Origin: Alphaproteobacteria bacterium
GTDB lineage: Bacteria; Pseudomonadota; Alphaproteobacteria; Micavibrionales; Micavibrionaceae
Direction of reading: 5' to 3'
Assembly (NCBI GenBank): GCA_030427385.1
Contig: JAUHWR010000001.1
Coordinates: forward strand, 682,001 to 746,000
DNA length: 64,000 bases
The notes beneath the pieces were generated by a model, which was not told the DNA's origin, made no database searches, and saw only the letters and a list, made by a program, of their open reading frames with translations. A program made the position numbers and the translations under genes. Positions 6,186 through 11,919 of the stretch are shown in pieces. Every line of letters begins with the position of its first letter. Position 1 is the first letter of the stretch.

Positions 6186-7823
6186 ATGACTTACAATCCT
6201 CCCATTTCCGATATGAGTTTTCTACTTGAGCATGTGACAGGTTTTCGAAATTTGCCACATGCCGAGGAGCTTGATCCCGAAACCGTAGATGCCATTTTGG
6301 CAGAGGCGGCAAAGTTAGCGTCTGATGTACTCGCGCCGTTAAATAAGACGGGGGATGAACACGGAAATATTTTAAAAAATGGCGCCGTTACAACCACGCC
6401 GGGTTTCAAAGAAGCCTACCGGCAATATTGTGCGGGTGGATGGAATGCCGTTCCATTTCCAAATGAATTTGACGGGCAGGGTTTGCCGTGGTCACTGGCG
6501 TTTCCGATTCAGGAAATGTGGCAGGGGGCAAATTTATCCTTTGGACTGTGCCCATTATTAAATCAAGGCGCTGTCGATGCGATATTGGAGCATGGCTCAG
6601 AGGAGCAGAAAGCTTATTATTTGCCAAAGCTGATATCCGGTGAATGGACAGGAACAATGAATTTAACCGAGCCACAAGCCGGCTCGGATTTGGCCGCTGT
6701 AAAAACAAAGGCAGAGCCCGCCAAGGACGGCACATATAAGGTTTTTGGACAAAAAATTTATATCACGTATGGTGAGCATGATATGTCGGAAAATATCATT
6801 CACCTGGTGCTCGCACGCTTGCCAAACGCGCCGGAAGGGGTGAAGGGAATATCTTTGTTTATTGTGCCAAAATTTTTAGAAGATGGAACGCGTAATGATG
6901 TGATCTGCACGGGGCTTGAACATAAGTTGGGTATTCATGCTTCCCCAACGTGTACTATGCAATTTGGAGATCAAGGCGGCGCAACAGGGTTTTTGGTCGG
7001 TGAGGCGCATCAGGGGCTGAAATATATGTTCACAATGATGAATAATGCCAGATTATCGGTTGGCTTACAGGGCGTTGCGATAGCAGAGCGCGCGTTACAA
7101 CATGCGGAGCATTATGCGCGTGAGCGCGTGCAAGGAAAGGGGCTGTCTAGCGGCGAATCTGTAACCATTGATCATCACCCTGATGTGCAACGCATGCTGT
7201 TAACAATGAAGGCATTGACGATGGCGGGGCGTGCCATGGCATATGATGCCTCGGTTTATCTGGATCAGGCGCGGGCAGGTGATGAAGCCGCGCAAATTCA
7301 AGTTGATTTATTGACTCCTATTATTAAATCATGGTGCACGGACATGGCATGTGAAGTTGCCTCTATAGGTGTACAAATTCATGGTGGCATGGGGTTTGTG
7401 GAAGAAACAGGTGCGGCGCAATATTATCGCGATGCTCGAATTTTGCCTATTTATGAAGGTACAAACGGTATTCAAGCCAATGATTTGTTATTCCGAAAAA
7501 TTCTACGTGATCAAGGTGCGGCTTTAACTTCATTTTATACGGATATAAAAAAGACATTAGCTGATAATGTGCAGGCGGCGGAAATATTTGCACATTTAGA
7601 TGATGTGCTTTCAATGATTAAATTAAACAAAGACCTAGAAAATCTTGCATTTATAGCAGTGCCATTATTGAACGGGCTCGGGGTCTTAAAAGGCGCGGAG
7701 ATGATGACAAAGATGGCAAGTGCGAATGATAAGTATAATGATTTGAGCGATTTTTATATGCGTAATATCCTTCCTAGAGCAAGGATGTCATTTGATGTGG
7801 TTTATCTTAATTTAAAAACTTAA
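6186..7823 (+). CDS. Acyl-CoA dehydrogenase, long form (DmdC-like)
   Basis: This FAD-dependent enzyme oxidises acyl-CoA thioesters to enoyl-CoAs. At 545 residues it belongs to the enlarged acyl-CoA dehydrogenases that include 3-methylmercaptopropionyl-CoA dehydrogenase. The FAD-contacting M-N-L-T-E-P-Q-A-G-S-D-L is near residue 160. The catalytic base is Glu424 in Y-E-G-T-N-G-I-Q. A roughly 100-residue C-terminal extension follows the core, as in this subgroup. The true substrate cannot be read from sequence. It stands alone on the plus strand, with no electron-transfer flavoprotein or thiolase gene beside it. Confidence 0.9.
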   Translation: MTYNPPISDMSFLLEHVTGFRNLPHAEELDPETVDAILAEAAKLASDVLAPLNKTGDEHGNILKNGAVTTTPGFKEAYRQYCAGGWNAVPFPNEFDGQGLPWSLAFPIQEMWQGANLSFGLCPLLNQGAVDAILEHGSEEQKAYYLPKLISGEWTGTMNLTEPQAGSDLAAVKTKAEPAKDGTYKVFGQKIYITYGEHDMSENIIHLVLARLPNAPEGVKGISLFIVPKFLEDGTRNDVICTGLEHKLGIHASPTCTMQFGDQGGATGFLVGEAHQGLKYMFTMMNNARLSVGLQGVAIAERALQHAEHYARERVQGKGLSSGESVTIDHHPDVQRMLLTMKALTMAGRAMAYDASVYLDQARAGDEAAQIQVDLLTPIIKSWCTDMACEVASIGVQIHGGMGFVEETGAAQYYRDARILPIYEGTNGIQANDLLFRKILRDQGAALTSFYTDIKKTLADNVQAAEIFAHLDDVLSMIKLNKDLENLAFIAVPLLNGLGVLKGAEMMTKMASANDKYNDLSDFYMRNILPRARMSFDVVYLNLKT

Positions 7824-8359
7824 AGCCCGCATCCGACATAGGCGTCTTTTTCGACCCAATTTAGCGTTTTATAATTAACTCGACTGTGGCGTGATATCTT
7901 ATCAGCAACAGACTTTGCATAGCAATCACAGACCTCAATCGGATCTTTTTTCTTTTTAATCATCTTTTCGACTTTGATTTTTGCAGTGCATTGGCCAAAA
8001 TAAAAGGCTTCCATTTTACCCTTATCAAAACAAGTATTATAAATAGCTGATTCAATAATATCTTTGGAGACGTTAGGCAATTTCACCCGTTGTTCGAGAA
8101 ATGACATGGCATAACATTTACAATCACGATGACCGTTCTCAAATATATCTATTTTACATTCATTATGAACGGAATCCATTTCAACCAAAAAAGCGCGTTT
8201 AATCTCATTGGGGGGCGGTAAGTCAAAAACTTTATCCTTACTATAGATAACTTTTTGACTGTCACTTCGGTTTCTATCCTGAGTTTGTGCATTTGACAAA
8301 GAAGGCAGACACAAAGCAATTACAAGCAAGAAATAGCTAAATATTCTAATTAATCCCAT
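7820..8359 (-). CDS. Exported cysteine-rich hypothetical protein with duplicated CxCYAxS motif
   Basis: I do not recognise a named family. The chosen ATG at 8359 gives 179 residues and puts a clean signal peptide at the N-terminus (M-G-L-I-R-I-F then a hydrophobic core, cleavage near S-N-A-Q). A longer frame back to 8461 would bury the signal and overlap the deaminase gene. The mature part carries two similar units, C-K-C-Y-A-M-S-F and C-D-C-Y-A-K-S-V. Each is preceded by a Cys and followed by a lone Cys about 25-35 residues later, suggesting two disulphide- or metal-bonded helical repeats. It is the last gene of a three-gene minus-strand group, 37 bases after the deaminase stop, and overlaps the 3' end of the acyl-CoA dehydrogenase gene by 4 bases. 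Confidence 0.7.
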   Translation of the reverse strand: MGLIRIFSYFLLVIALCLPSLSNAQTQDRNRSDSQKVIYSKDKVFDLPPPNEIKRAFLVEMDSVHNECKIDIFENGHRDCKCYAMSFLEQRVKLPNVSKDIIESAIYNTCFDKGKMEAFYFGQCTAKIKVEKMIKKKKDPIEVCDCYAKSVADKISRHSRVNYKTLNWVEKDAYVGCGL

Positions 8360-8396
8360 GCTTTCAATATAACGCATTTTCAAAGTAAAAAACATT

Positions 8397-9332
8397 TTAT
8401 TCCATAATTTGAATGATTTTATGTTGTAGTATCTGTTGTTTTGCATGGAGAGAATGCTCATCTCTTGCTTTTACGGCATTTAGTATTTTTATTTTTTTTA
8501 TACCTGCGCCGATGATGTTGATAAATTCACGACTGGTAGGGAGTTCGTTAACGCAGAATGTATTTTCATCAATCGACATCCCCAGTCGTGCGGCGTTCAT
8601 AAGCAACCTGTTACATGATTCTTGAATATAAGAGTATTTGGTCTCTGGGTGGGTGATTTCATGTTCATCATGATCATGTTTAAAACCAAGTGCAGGGTGG
8701 GATTTGCATATAAGTTGTTTTAAATTTTCACCACTTCCTATGCAAGCAAGAGCGGTTTTGGGTTGGTTCTTAAAATCAGAGATAGATTTAAAATGGGCGG
8801 GATCTGTAATTAAAACAATGGGGAAATCTTGTTTTGGAATATAATCTTCATTGGCGATTGTAATAGGTTTTATCGATTGTTCTTTACGATTGACTTCATA
8901 CATGCTTATACCAGCTTTTTCCGCGAGGCGAATTGACATTGAATTAAAGTGATCAATTCGGCGCGCGGCGAAATCTTTGTGAAACCCTTTATGATCAATG
9001 TAAATATTATCAATGCCTGCTTCTGCCATATTTTTAACGCAGTTCGGGCAGGGCGGATCTGTGATGGCTATATGCGCCCCCTGACATGATTTTCCTTGCT
9101 CGAAAGCCGCATGAAACAGACAGGCAGTCTCAGCGTGAATCGTTCCGGAGGCATTGCCGATTTTGGTTTCAACCCCAAAATTATCTTCAATGACTGGAGG
9201 GTAAAAATTGACATTAGAAAATGACCAATTCTGTTCCAAATGAAAAATAGTTGCTGCGATCCGATTGGTCACATGAGAGGAAGTATGTACAATATCAACG
9301 GCGGATTGTAGTGCCTTGAAGGGTGAGGTCAT
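8397..9332 (-). CDS. Cytidine/deoxycytidylate deaminase-family protein with second, degenerate deaminase domain
   Basis: The 311-residue protein contains a zinc deaminase domain in its first half. H66-A-E68 supplies one ligand and the catalytic glutamate, and P-C95-P-N-C98 supplies the other two ligands. Residues 237-283 align without gaps to residues 66-112, with 11 of 47 positions identical, including the L-P/P-P turn and A-G-I-x-x-I-x-I. In this copy the ligands and the catalytic residue are replaced (Q237, S239, T266, E269). The gene is thus an internal duplication with one active-looking and one dead unit. The substrate (free nucleotide, base or nucleic acid) cannot be told from the sequence. 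It lies between a CYTH-domain gene and a Cys-rich exported protein, all on the minus strand. Confidence 0.85.
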   Translation of the reverse strand: MTSPFKALQSAVDIVHTSSHVTNRIAATIFHLEQNWSFSNVNFYPPVIEDNFGVETKIGNASGTIHAETACLFHAAFEQGKSCQGAHIAITDPPCPNCVKNMAEAGIDNIYIDHKGFHKDFAARRIDHFNSMSIRLAEKAGISMYEVNRKEQSIKPITIANEDYIPKQDFPIVLITDPAHFKSISDFKNQPKTALACIGSGENLKQLICKSHPALGFKHDHDEHEITHPETKYSYIQESCNRLLMNAARLGMSIDENTFCVNELPTSREFINIIGAGIKKIKILNAVKARDEHSLHAKQQILQHKIIQIME

Positions 9333-9392: not shown

Positions 9393-10343
9393 CTAAGCCC
9401 TGCAGTTATTTGGGCCCAATAAATATAATAATCTCTCTATTGATGGTGGTTGTCTTGTAAAGGATGCATAATGTTCTTCCATTGCAGATAAAAAGTCTTC
9501 TTTATACTGAAATCCGCGTTCAGCTTTGCTGAGTGTATTTGTTTTTACCGTTCCTGGAAGCGCGCCTGTTAAAATTTGTTGATTAACAAAGTCGAAAAGT
9601 TGCAATTTTTCTTCTTTACTCATTATATCTGATACAAACCCAAAACGTCTGGAGTCTGTATCATATTCACATGGTTTGGTCAGAAGTTCAAACTCCAATT
9701 CACGGTCTTCATCCATCAAAATATATTGCCTCTCTTTTTCGCAATCTAATTTATATGGGACGCGATCGTCATTCAGCTCTATGACACCTTTAAAGTCAGG
9801 TTGGCCATTTTTATATATGCCAAAACAACTGCCGGGAATTTTAAGAACATGTCTATTTCGCTCAACAGGCATCACGAATTGTTTTTTTGGTGCACATTCT
9901 TTTATAAAATCTATAATTGCGGGAAGTTCAGGGTTTTCTTTAGCTGAATATTTATAGAATAGTGTATCCAGTTCTAATTCGTTAATATTACCATTTGTTG
10001 GACATTCATATTCTGCGCGATCCAAAAAATGGCTTGAGCTTTGTGGTGGTTTAACCTTAACGCAAATGTCAGTGGCTATGGGTCTCCCGCGTTTATCTAG
10101 TGTTGCACGATTGCGTACGCTTATACCATTATTTTCTAATACTCTATCATCATTATCATATTGATGGGTTAGAATTAGGCGCGTAGGGTTGGTATATCCT
10201 TCACAGCCAAAATAGAATAAATGATGAAGAACGCTTGTACCAAGATCTTGTGAGGGATGAAGCAGGCTTAGGAACTTGCTCTCAGGTTCTCTTGCATTGC
10301 TTGCAATTCTAAACGCATTCAGATTAAAATTAAATTCCCCCAT
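9393..10343 (-). CDS. CYTH-domain (triphosphate tunnel metalloenzyme-like) protein
   Basis: The protein (316 residues from the ATG at 10343) shows the CYTH pattern. E-P-E-S-K at residues 19-23 fits the ExExK signature. It is followed by Y-D-N-D-D-R-V-L and G-I-S-V-R-N-R, then C-V-K-V-K, R-A-E-Y-E, and in the second half G-V-I-E-L-N-D-D-R and E-L-E-F-E-L. These alternating Arg/Lys/Glu strands line a tunnel that binds triphosphate-containing substrates in known members (thiamine triphosphatase, inorganic triphosphatase, class IV adenylyl cyclase). The ATG at 10343 is preferred over an in-frame TTG at 10361 because a G-rich ribosome site falls between them. It heads the group with the deaminase, 60 bases apart. 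Confidence 0.65.
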   Translation of the reverse strand: MGEFNFNLNAFRIASNAREPESKFLSLLHPSQDLGTSVLHHLFYFGCEGYTNPTRLILTHQYDNDDRVLENNGISVRNRATLDKRGRPIATDICVKVKPPQSSSHFLDRAEYECPTNGNINELELDTLFYKYSAKENPELPAIIDFIKECAPKKQFVMPVERNRHVLKIPGSCFGIYKNGQPDFKGVIELNDDRVPYKLDCEKERQYILMDEDRELEFELLTKPCEYDTDSRRFGFVSDIMSKEEKLQLFDFVNQQILTGALPGTVKTNTLSKAERGFQYKEDFLSAMEEHYASFTRQPPSIERLLYLLGPNNCRA

Positions 10344-10524
10344 CTTAATAACACCCCCCAATATTTTTTTAATATATAAGCTCCTGCTAATCTAAATGTC
10401 AACTTACTATTATGAATAATAATGCAGCATTGTCGCGGAGAGGTAAATCACGTAGTCTTTAGACCTAATTTTAAAATTGATTTTTCTTAAATGAACCTGT
10501 GGATAAAATAAAAAAGGCAAGATA

Positions 10525-11919
10525 ATGAGTAAGACAGATTACGATGTAATTATAATTGGTTCCGGTCCGGGCGGCTATGTTTGTGCGATTCGCTGCGCAC
10601 AGTTGGGGATGAAAGTGGCATGTGTAGAAAAGCGTGATGCGTTGGGCGGGACTTGTTTAAATATTGGTTGTATCCCATCAAAGGCGTTGTTGCATGCGTC
10701 TGAGCGATATGAGGAAACCAATTATAAATTAAAAGATTTTGGCATCGATATTAAGGGCGTGTCTCTTAATCTAAAAAATATGATGAAACATAAAAACGAC
10801 GTTGTTGCCGCCAATACGCAAGGCATTGAATTTCTGTTCAAGAAAAATAAAATCGACTGGCTAAAGGGAGAGGGAAAAATCACCGCGGAGAATGAGGTCA
10901 CCGTCGGGAAAAATAAATATTCCGCTGAAAATATTGTTATTGCAACCGGATCGGACGTTGTGTCCCTCCCTGGTATTGAGATTGATGAGAAAAAAATTGT
11001 GTCATCAACGGGCGCTTTGGTTCTGGATTCTGTGCCTAAGAAAATGGTTGTGATCGGCGGTGGTGTTATTGGGCTTGAGCTTGGTTGCGTTTGGAGCCGT
11101 TTGGGAGCAGAGGTGACAATTATTGAATTTATGGATGAAATCCTGCCGGGTATGGATGGTGAAATCCGCAAGGAATCCCGCAAAATATTTGAAAAACAAG
11201 GGCTTACATTTAAGCTTTCAACTAAAGTCACAAGTGCAAAAGCGGGTAAATCCGGGGTGGATTTGGAATTGGAACCGGCTGCGGGCGGCAAATCTGAGAA
11301 AATGAAAGCAGATATTGTTTTGGTAGCTGTTGGGCGCAAAGCTTATACGGATAATGTAGGTTTGGACAAAGTAGGTGTAGATGTCGATGAGCGTGGGCGC
11401 ATTCAAACAGGTGAATTTTTTGATACGAATATCGATGGAATTTATGCCATTGGCGATGTCATTGCGGGCCCTATGTTGGCACATAAAGCTGAGGAGGAGG
11501 GCGTTGTTCTGGCTGAGATGCTGGCGGGGCAATCCGGGCATATTGATTACAACTTGGTCCCCGGCGTAGTTTATACCTTCCCCGAAGTTGCCAATATCGG
11601 CAAAACCGAAGAGCAGTTAAAAGAAGCGGGTATCAAATATAAGAAAGGTAAATTCCCTTTCTCCGCCAATGGACGTGCACGTGCAATGTCTGCAACCGAC
11701 GGGTTTGTTAAAATTCTAGCCGATGAAAAAACGGACCGCGTGCTTGGGGCGCATATCCTTGGCCCAGAGGCCGGAACATTAATTGCAGAAATCGCGGCAG
11801 TAATGGAATTTGGCGGCTCTTCCGAAGATATCGCCAGAACATGCCACGCTCACCCGACTTTAGAGGAAGTCGTAAAGGAAGCCGCCCTCGCGGTTGATGG
11901 ACGACAACTTCATATGTAA
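10525..11919 (+). CDS. lpdA: Dihydrolipoyl dehydrogenase (E3)
   Basis: This FAD enzyme reoxidises dihydrolipoamide in the 2-oxoacid dehydrogenase complexes or the glycine cleavage system, passing electrons to NAD. It is 464 residues long, normal for the family. The FAD fingerprint G-S-G-P-G-G is at 12-17, the redox-active pair C44/C49 is in G-G-T-C-L-N-I-G-C, the NAD fingerprint is G-G-G-V-I-G near residue 178, and the interface base is H443-P-T-L-E-E448. No E1 or E2 genes lie beside it, so it may serve several complexes. The ATG follows an AAAGGCAAG ribosome site. Confidence 0.97.
   Translation: MSKTDYDVIIIGSGPGGYVCAIRCAQLGMKVACVEKRDALGGTCLNIGCIPSKALLHASERYEETNYKLKDFGIDIKGVSLNLKNMMKHKNDVVAANTQGIEFLFKKNKIDWLKGEGKITAENEVTVGKNKYSAENIVIATGSDVVSLPGIEIDEKKIVSSTGALVLDSVPKKMVVIGGGVIGLELGCVWSRLGAEVTIIEFMDEILPGMDGEIRKESRKIFEKQGLTFKLSTKVTSAKAGKSGVDLELEPAAGGKSEKMKADIVLVAVGRKAYTDNVGLDKVGVDVDERGRIQTGEFFDTNIDGIYAIGDVIAGPMLAHKAEEEGVVLAEMLAGQSGHIDYNLVPGVVYTFPEVANIGKTEEQLKEAGIKYKKGKFPFSANGRARAMSATDGFVKILADEKTDRVLGAHILGPEAGTLIAEIAAVMEFGGSSEDIARTCHAHPTLEEVVKEAALAVDGRQLHM

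Follow-up and report, generated by a model that had tools for sequence, protein, structure and literature searches.

The cytidine deaminase (Cdd) of E. coli is composed of an active N-terminal and a dead C-terminal deaminase domain. The pairing of one active with one inactive domain in a single chain is also found in the double-domain APOBEC3 proteins (PMC7354603) and in human CDADC1, which deaminates (d)CTP as a free nucleotide (PMC12088426; PDB 9HFQ-9HFT). The CDADC1 trimer rebuilds the hexameric ring of the single-domain dCMP deaminases with dead and live domains alternating; the site of the dead domain is blocked and its role is architectural only, while K392 of CDADC1 contacts the alpha-phosphate of dCTP (PMC12088426).

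The gene described here was found in a 64,000-nucleotide stretch of DNA (the window) from the 2.19 Mb genome of a Micavibrio-like bacterium. It occupies positions 8397..9332 on the minus strand and encodes a protein of 311 aa. The open frame, proposed in a preliminary description of the window, is real; a family profile (A1, 39 sequences) detected the tandem protein in 102 of 142 genomes of the order, representing three of its families, with homologues of similar length. As judged from sequence, the product would be a dCMP-deaminase-like enzyme joined to a degenerate, zinc-less second half of the same domain kind, hereafter the N-half and C-half. The only PF00383 deaminases detected in the host genome were this protein and one recognized by sequence that we take to be TadA, so that the substrate of the tandem protein bears on pyrimidine handling in Micavibrio-like bacteria.

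The N-terminal catalytic domain, of the dCMP-deaminase type, spans residues 4-155 (8868..9323, minus strand). Residues 53-112 matched PF00383 with 34.2 bits against a cut-off of 25, and the N-half profile matched single-domain dCMP deaminases over 137 columns with an E-value of 6.8e-22. The top PDB matches were the dCMP deaminases of phage T4, Streptococcus mutans and cyanophage S-TIM5. The HAE motif containing the zinc His and catalytic Glu (residues 66-68; 9129..9137, minus strand) and the PCPNC motif containing the zinc Cys pair (residues 94-98; 9039..9053, minus strand) are present in the first half as the preliminary description claimed. Residues H66, A67, E68, C95, P96, N97, C98 and K100 are kept by the N-halves of all 39 homologues, and the HxE and PCxxC pattern of the PF00383 superfamily lies inside the domain in every one of them (39/39). 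The N-half would bind zinc via H66, C95 and C98, and E68 would act as the proton shuttle in the general mechanism of the superfamily. The N-half also bears a signature, TNxWP plus DHKGF, that is absent from the dCMP deaminases compared, and the basic segment DHKGFxKDFxxRR is conserved; the KY motif of dCMP deaminases is missing from this half.

The C-terminal domain extends over about residues 176-311 (8400..8807, minus strand), with the profile match covering about residues 202-305. An internal duplication had been proposed on the basis of 11 identities between residues 66-112 and 237-283 (47 positions). The count was exactly reproduced, but at least 11 identities were also found in some 47-residue segment in 32 of 300 shuffles of the C-half, so the identity is by itself no proof of duplication. 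The best ungapped BLOSUM62 segment between the halves likewise scored below the shuffle mean. Comparison of the two profiles with hhalign paired positions 78-142 of the N-half with 249-306 of the C-half at an offset of 171, the same as that of the preliminary description; the score of 26.7 was reached by none of 300 column shuffles (maximum 22.3), and the reversed profile scored 10.0. A second C-half profile of greater diversity (A4, 26 sequences) matched single-domain dCMP deaminases of other Pseudomonadota over 99 columns with an E-value of 3.3e-6, the N-halves over 113 columns with an E-value of 6.3e-5, and those dCMP deaminases together with the N-halves with an E-value of 2.4e-7, the score being reached in each case by none of 200 shuffles. 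Eleven neighbouring gene families that served as negative controls in the C-half profile test gave E-values of 0.18 or worse. When A4 was searched against the PDB (177,635 sequences), the sole match with E ≤ 10 was the PBCV-1 dCMP/dCTP deaminase 7fh4 (E 0.24), and the match lies in the expected register. The Pfam scan returned no match for the window C-half alone and no consistent family for 26 homologous C-halves. A profile search of each half had been suggested as a check, and both halves match dCMP deaminases (E 6.8e-22 and 3.3e-6). By sequence profile, then, the C-half is a degenerate dCMP-deaminase domain.

Structure prediction with AlphaFold was run on an alignment of four sequences, and the two models obtained were of low confidence with mean pLDDT values of 50.6 and 65.6, too low to settle the fold unaided. 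The model of the C-half from one homologue (L041, pLDDT 65.6) shows the elements E-H-E-E-H-E-H-E-H-E, which after an extra first strand follow the deaminase order alpha1-beta1-beta2-alpha2-beta3-alpha3-beta4-alpha4-beta5. Foldseek searches with these weak models placed dCMP deaminases first or near first, below significance, and the first matches for the L041 model (pLDDT 65.6) were to human dCMP deaminase with an E-value of 0.13. VIA-align of a low-confidence model placed human dCMP deaminase at Z 4.7, below cytokinin oxidases, YnaI and PII-like proteins.

In the window N-half the zinc His and the first Cys are 29 residues apart, compared with 24-25 in most relatives, with an insertion of 4-5 residues in this stretch that is peculiar to the window protein; consequently, the gapless register between the halves is shifted at the HAE end. 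The register was instead anchored on the Lys-Tyr pair common to dCMP deaminases ('KYSYIQESCNRLLMNAARLGM' versus 'KYDWTEHAERNAIYNAARIGM'). Lys232-Tyr233 of the C-half (8634..8639, minus strand; K in 35 of 39 homologues and otherwise R, Y in all 39) align with the KY of dCMP deaminases such as that of L052, gap-free to the Pro of PCxxC. In this register His66 corresponds to Glu238, Glu68 to Cys240, Cys95 to Thr266 and Cys98 to Glu269. The former HAE position is occupied by QESCNR (residues 237-242; 8607..8624, minus strand) and the former PCxxC position by PTSRE (residues 265-269; 8526..8540, minus strand). Of the replacements originally listed, Gln, Thr, Glu and Ser, those by Thr266 and Glu269 hold, while Gln237 and Ser239 give way to Glu238 and Cys240; in either register neither the His, nor the catalytic Glu, nor the Cys pair is present at the second site.

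The loss extends to all members examined. His at 237/238 and Glu at 240 occur in none of the 39 homologues, and no homologue carries the zinc and catalytic set in its second half. The place of the former His is taken by E, Q, D or another residue, that of the former catalytic Glu by L, V, M, I, C or A, and that of the first Cys (266) by T, S or G (T or S in 38/39), while the second Cys place (269) is E in 33 of 39 and Cys in only two. Y233, P265, R268 and A297 are invariant in the C-half (39/39), and R242 (36/39), N272 and G275 are nearly so. Read from this conservation, catalysis by the C-half was lost before the families of the order diverged, and something else was kept. The proposal that an active and a catalytically dead deaminase domain share one chain is supported by the profiles and by conservation over 39 homologues.

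Among described systems, CDADC1 is the nearest functional parallel and the nearest that has been studied experimentally. As in CDADC1, each chain would pair an active with an inactive domain of the dCMP-deaminase-like kind, and the family profile matched CDADC1 with an E-value of 5.3e-7. Unlike the tandem protein, CDADC1 has the inactive domain first and a 126-residue helical linker, and its dead domain keeps the zinc ligands without the Glu, whereas the dead half described here has lost the zinc ligands too. The origin of the tandem protein is probably independent of that of CDADC1. The N-half is homologous over its whole length to the single-domain dCMP deaminases (T4, S. mutans, S-TIM5, human DCTD and PBCV-1 bi-DCD) and the C-half is homologous with the KY motif kept, but the tandem protein differs from these enzymes in having two domains, one of them dead. 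The NCBIfam model for ComEB scored 46.5 bits, below the cut-off of 219.45, and the G(Y/W)N(A/G) allosteric motif is intact in neither half: the N-half keeps N42 (38/39) without the flanks and the C-half lacks the motif. The E. coli-type dimeric Cdd has the same order of active and then dead domain; unlike Cdd, both halves of the tandem protein resemble dCMP deaminases, and the Cdd model TIGR01355 scored 17.1 bits, below the cut-off of 275. The statement that such an arrangement is uncommon among small bacterial deaminases needs to be qualified accordingly, as Cdd likewise has a dead second domain. The anti-phage dCTP deaminase model NF041025 scored 26.1 bits (cut-off 400) with 49 residues matched, and the PADLOC dCTPase model matched only 50 residues. 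The protein therefore falls outside ComEB/DCTD by both the model cut-off and the allosteric motif, and by model scores it belongs neither to the TIGR01355 Cdd family nor to the anti-phage dCTP deaminases or APOBEC.

A homologue was present in 40 of 58 relatives, most of them nearly full length with 34-48% identity. In a scan of the class (385 genomes) tandem matches were confined to members of the order, and in a scan of the phylum (398 genomes) the window's genome gave the only one; no tandem form was detected in several hundred other Pseudomonadota genomes searched. The remaining matches in the class and phylum scans covered the N-half alone; their frames measured about 150-180 aa, apart from one of 252 aa, and the ones whose sequences were inspected are single-domain dCMP deaminases. 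Outside the Pseudomonadota one pattern-based scan was run, which detects close relatives only. Relatives of the tandem protein were found neither in the viral contigs nor in the plasmids searched, and the phages searched gave ordinary dCMP deaminases only, at about E 1e-3. A literature search on the Bd3614/Bd3615 deaminases and on Micavibrio deaminases returned nothing relevant. A few genomes (G490, G506 and G463) carry a second copy close to the first. Divergent tandem deaminases in which HGE replaces HAE occur at the same lpd-linked locus in L039, L040 and L074 (L074:6263-7393), in the last case near a second copy of the HAE type. The C-half, which has the KY motif that the N-half lacks, scored 41.0 to independent dCMP deaminases versus 33.6 to its own N-half; from the sequences compared, the protein may have arisen either by internal duplication or by the fusion of two related deaminases. 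Retention of the two-part design throughout an order of Micavibrio-like bacteria implies that the dead half still has some function.

The explanation that we favor, with a probability of roughly 0.6, is a cytidine-nucleotide deaminase in which the N-half holds the sole working site and the C-half is a dead ring partner that supports or tunes it. Catalysis itself, the substrate, the oligomeric state and regulation are inferred as follows. The protein would be a zinc-dependent enzyme of the dCMP-deaminase lineage with its only working active site in the N-half, and the substrate would most likely be dCMP, dCTP or CMP/CTP. By analogy with CDADC1, the C-half probably replaces every second subunit of the dCMP-deaminase ring, and a trimer of tandems would stand in for the hexamer with the order of live and dead domains reversed; standing in place of alternate subunits, the C-half would therefore support or tune the N-half site. 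The dead half is best read as an architectural, perhaps ligand-sensing, partner. A role as the missing source of dUMP was considered and rejected as a necessity: the dCTP deaminase model TIGR02274 matched in 57 of 58 genomes, and with that enzyme in nearly all of them the tandem enzyme is dispensable as the sole route to dUMP. The protein has the appearance of a bacterial enzyme-plus-dead-twin design within the dCMP-deaminase lineage. Its conserved dead-site signature shows which residues to mutate, and the protein would help to decide between a purely scaffolding role for dead deaminase domains, the one proposed for CDADC1, and a regulatory one.

A stronger form of this reading assigns ligand sensing to the dead half, in which the former active site would bind a nucleotide and switch the N-half on or off. 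Consistent with this proposal, the former active site has three invariant residues, Y233, P265 and R268, and three nearly invariant ones, R242, N272 and E269, and Lys232 occupies the place of K392, the CDADC1 residue touching the dCTP alpha-phosphate (PMC12088426). Given that contact, and with Arg268 positioned at the lost zinc site, nucleotide binding by the dead half may be possible. The conserved residues could equally be structural, however, and the dead site of CDADC1 is blocked and architectural only, so that a sensor is conceivable though rather unlikely. That the invariant P-[TS]-x-R replaced the zinc centre, and that the former site now takes up a (d)NTP to control the active site next to it, is a doubtful proposal; if true, Micavibrio-like bacteria would have an allosteric cytidine-nucleotide deaminase that took the CDADC1 route and was built independently.

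A different substrate on the dCMP-deaminase scaffold, such as a modified pyrimidine or purine nucleotide of salvage or catabolism, would fit the dCTP deaminase already in the genome and the TNxWP and DHKGF signature. A cytosine-deaminase-like protein is encoded near the gene in L064, and an allantoate-amidohydrolase-like protein (allantoate/carbamoylase type) in L055, L064 and L073, which also points in this direction. These neighbours are found in few genomes, however, and we consider a different substrate unlikely.

The preliminary description had linked the protein to nucleic-acid editors of the APOBEC3 type. As an editor of tRNA, mRNA or ssDNA it would bind the polynucleotide through its dead half in the manner of APOBEC3 tandems or ADAT2/ADAT3; such editors do combine active with inactive domains (APOBEC3: PMC7354603), and the basic DHKGFxKDFxxRR segment of the N-half could be cited in support. 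The N-half is nevertheless of the dCMP-deaminase lineage, with tRNA deaminases matched far more weakly (E 0.004 or worse), and the genome carries its own TadA. The Pfam scan gave no match to RNA-binding domains and, to an E-value of 1, none to APOBEC-family models; the APOBEC-like SNAD4 model matched the N-half alone with an E-value of 0.18 and 12.3 bits (cut-off 27). APOBEC3 proteins moreover differ from the tandem protein in having the inactive domain first with its zinc motif still there. With CDADC1 as the nearest parallel, the editor link is not supported and is improbable; the most likely task of the dead half is holding or regulating the enzyme, not the editing of DNA or RNA. That the second half is no deaminase domain at all is very improbable. 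In favor of that reading, the 11/47 identity is insignificant, no Pfam family recognizes the C-half, and its fold matches from low-confidence models fall below significance (Foldseek E 0.13; VIA-align Z 4.7). Against a chance resemblance stand the profile matches, tested by shuffling and with control families, and the sole PDB sequence match, the dCMP/dCTP deaminase 7fh4.

The deaminase gene usually adjoins lpd on the opposite strand, near genes that from their sequences are presumably sucB and sucA, and the most divergent homologues (L038-L040) likewise adjoin lpd. In the window this conserved neighbour is the frame at 10525..11919 (plus strand), which from sequence and context we take to be lpd, encoding dihydrolipoamide dehydrogenase. 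Upstream of the deaminase lies a gene for a divergent CYTH-like protein, possibly a triphosphatase (9393..10361, minus strand), that is without a Pfam match and clusters with CYTH proteins; the two CYTH proteins that it matched, with E-values of 5.6e-9 and 4.6e-11, are encoded close to the deaminase gene in L062 and L070. The downstream ORF 7820-8461 (minus strand) encodes a probable secreted protein with a signal-like start at about residue 36 and a pair of similar repeats that contain Cys (CKCYAMSFLEQRV / CDCYAKSVADKI). As listed, this ORF begins 65 bp inside the deaminase gene, and its true start probably lies further downstream. Both the CYTH-like (P0002) and the secreted protein (P0003) were considered as operon partners and rejected, neither being conserved beside the gene in most relatives.

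Neighbours elsewhere are variable, and the occasional ones appear to lean to nucleotide metabolism. A gene for an AMP nucleosidase is inserted in L060, and the insert in L064 and L067 encodes a large protein carrying a TIGR00730 domain of the LOG type, with a relative in L041. These proteins of 739-958 aa (L064:7926-10799, L067:8185-11055 and L041:2638-4854) are encoded between the deaminase and lpd and have a long uncharacterized N-terminal part ahead of the C-terminal LOG/TIGR00730-type domain. A second large family beside the deaminase (L066:7237-9570 and L074:7413-9932; 778-840 aa) gave no Pfam or NCBIfam matches. Two frames of about 550 aa (G047:C6:110144 and G006:C38:3373) showed a short catalytic-motif match and are possibly dCTP deaminases of the anti-phage type.
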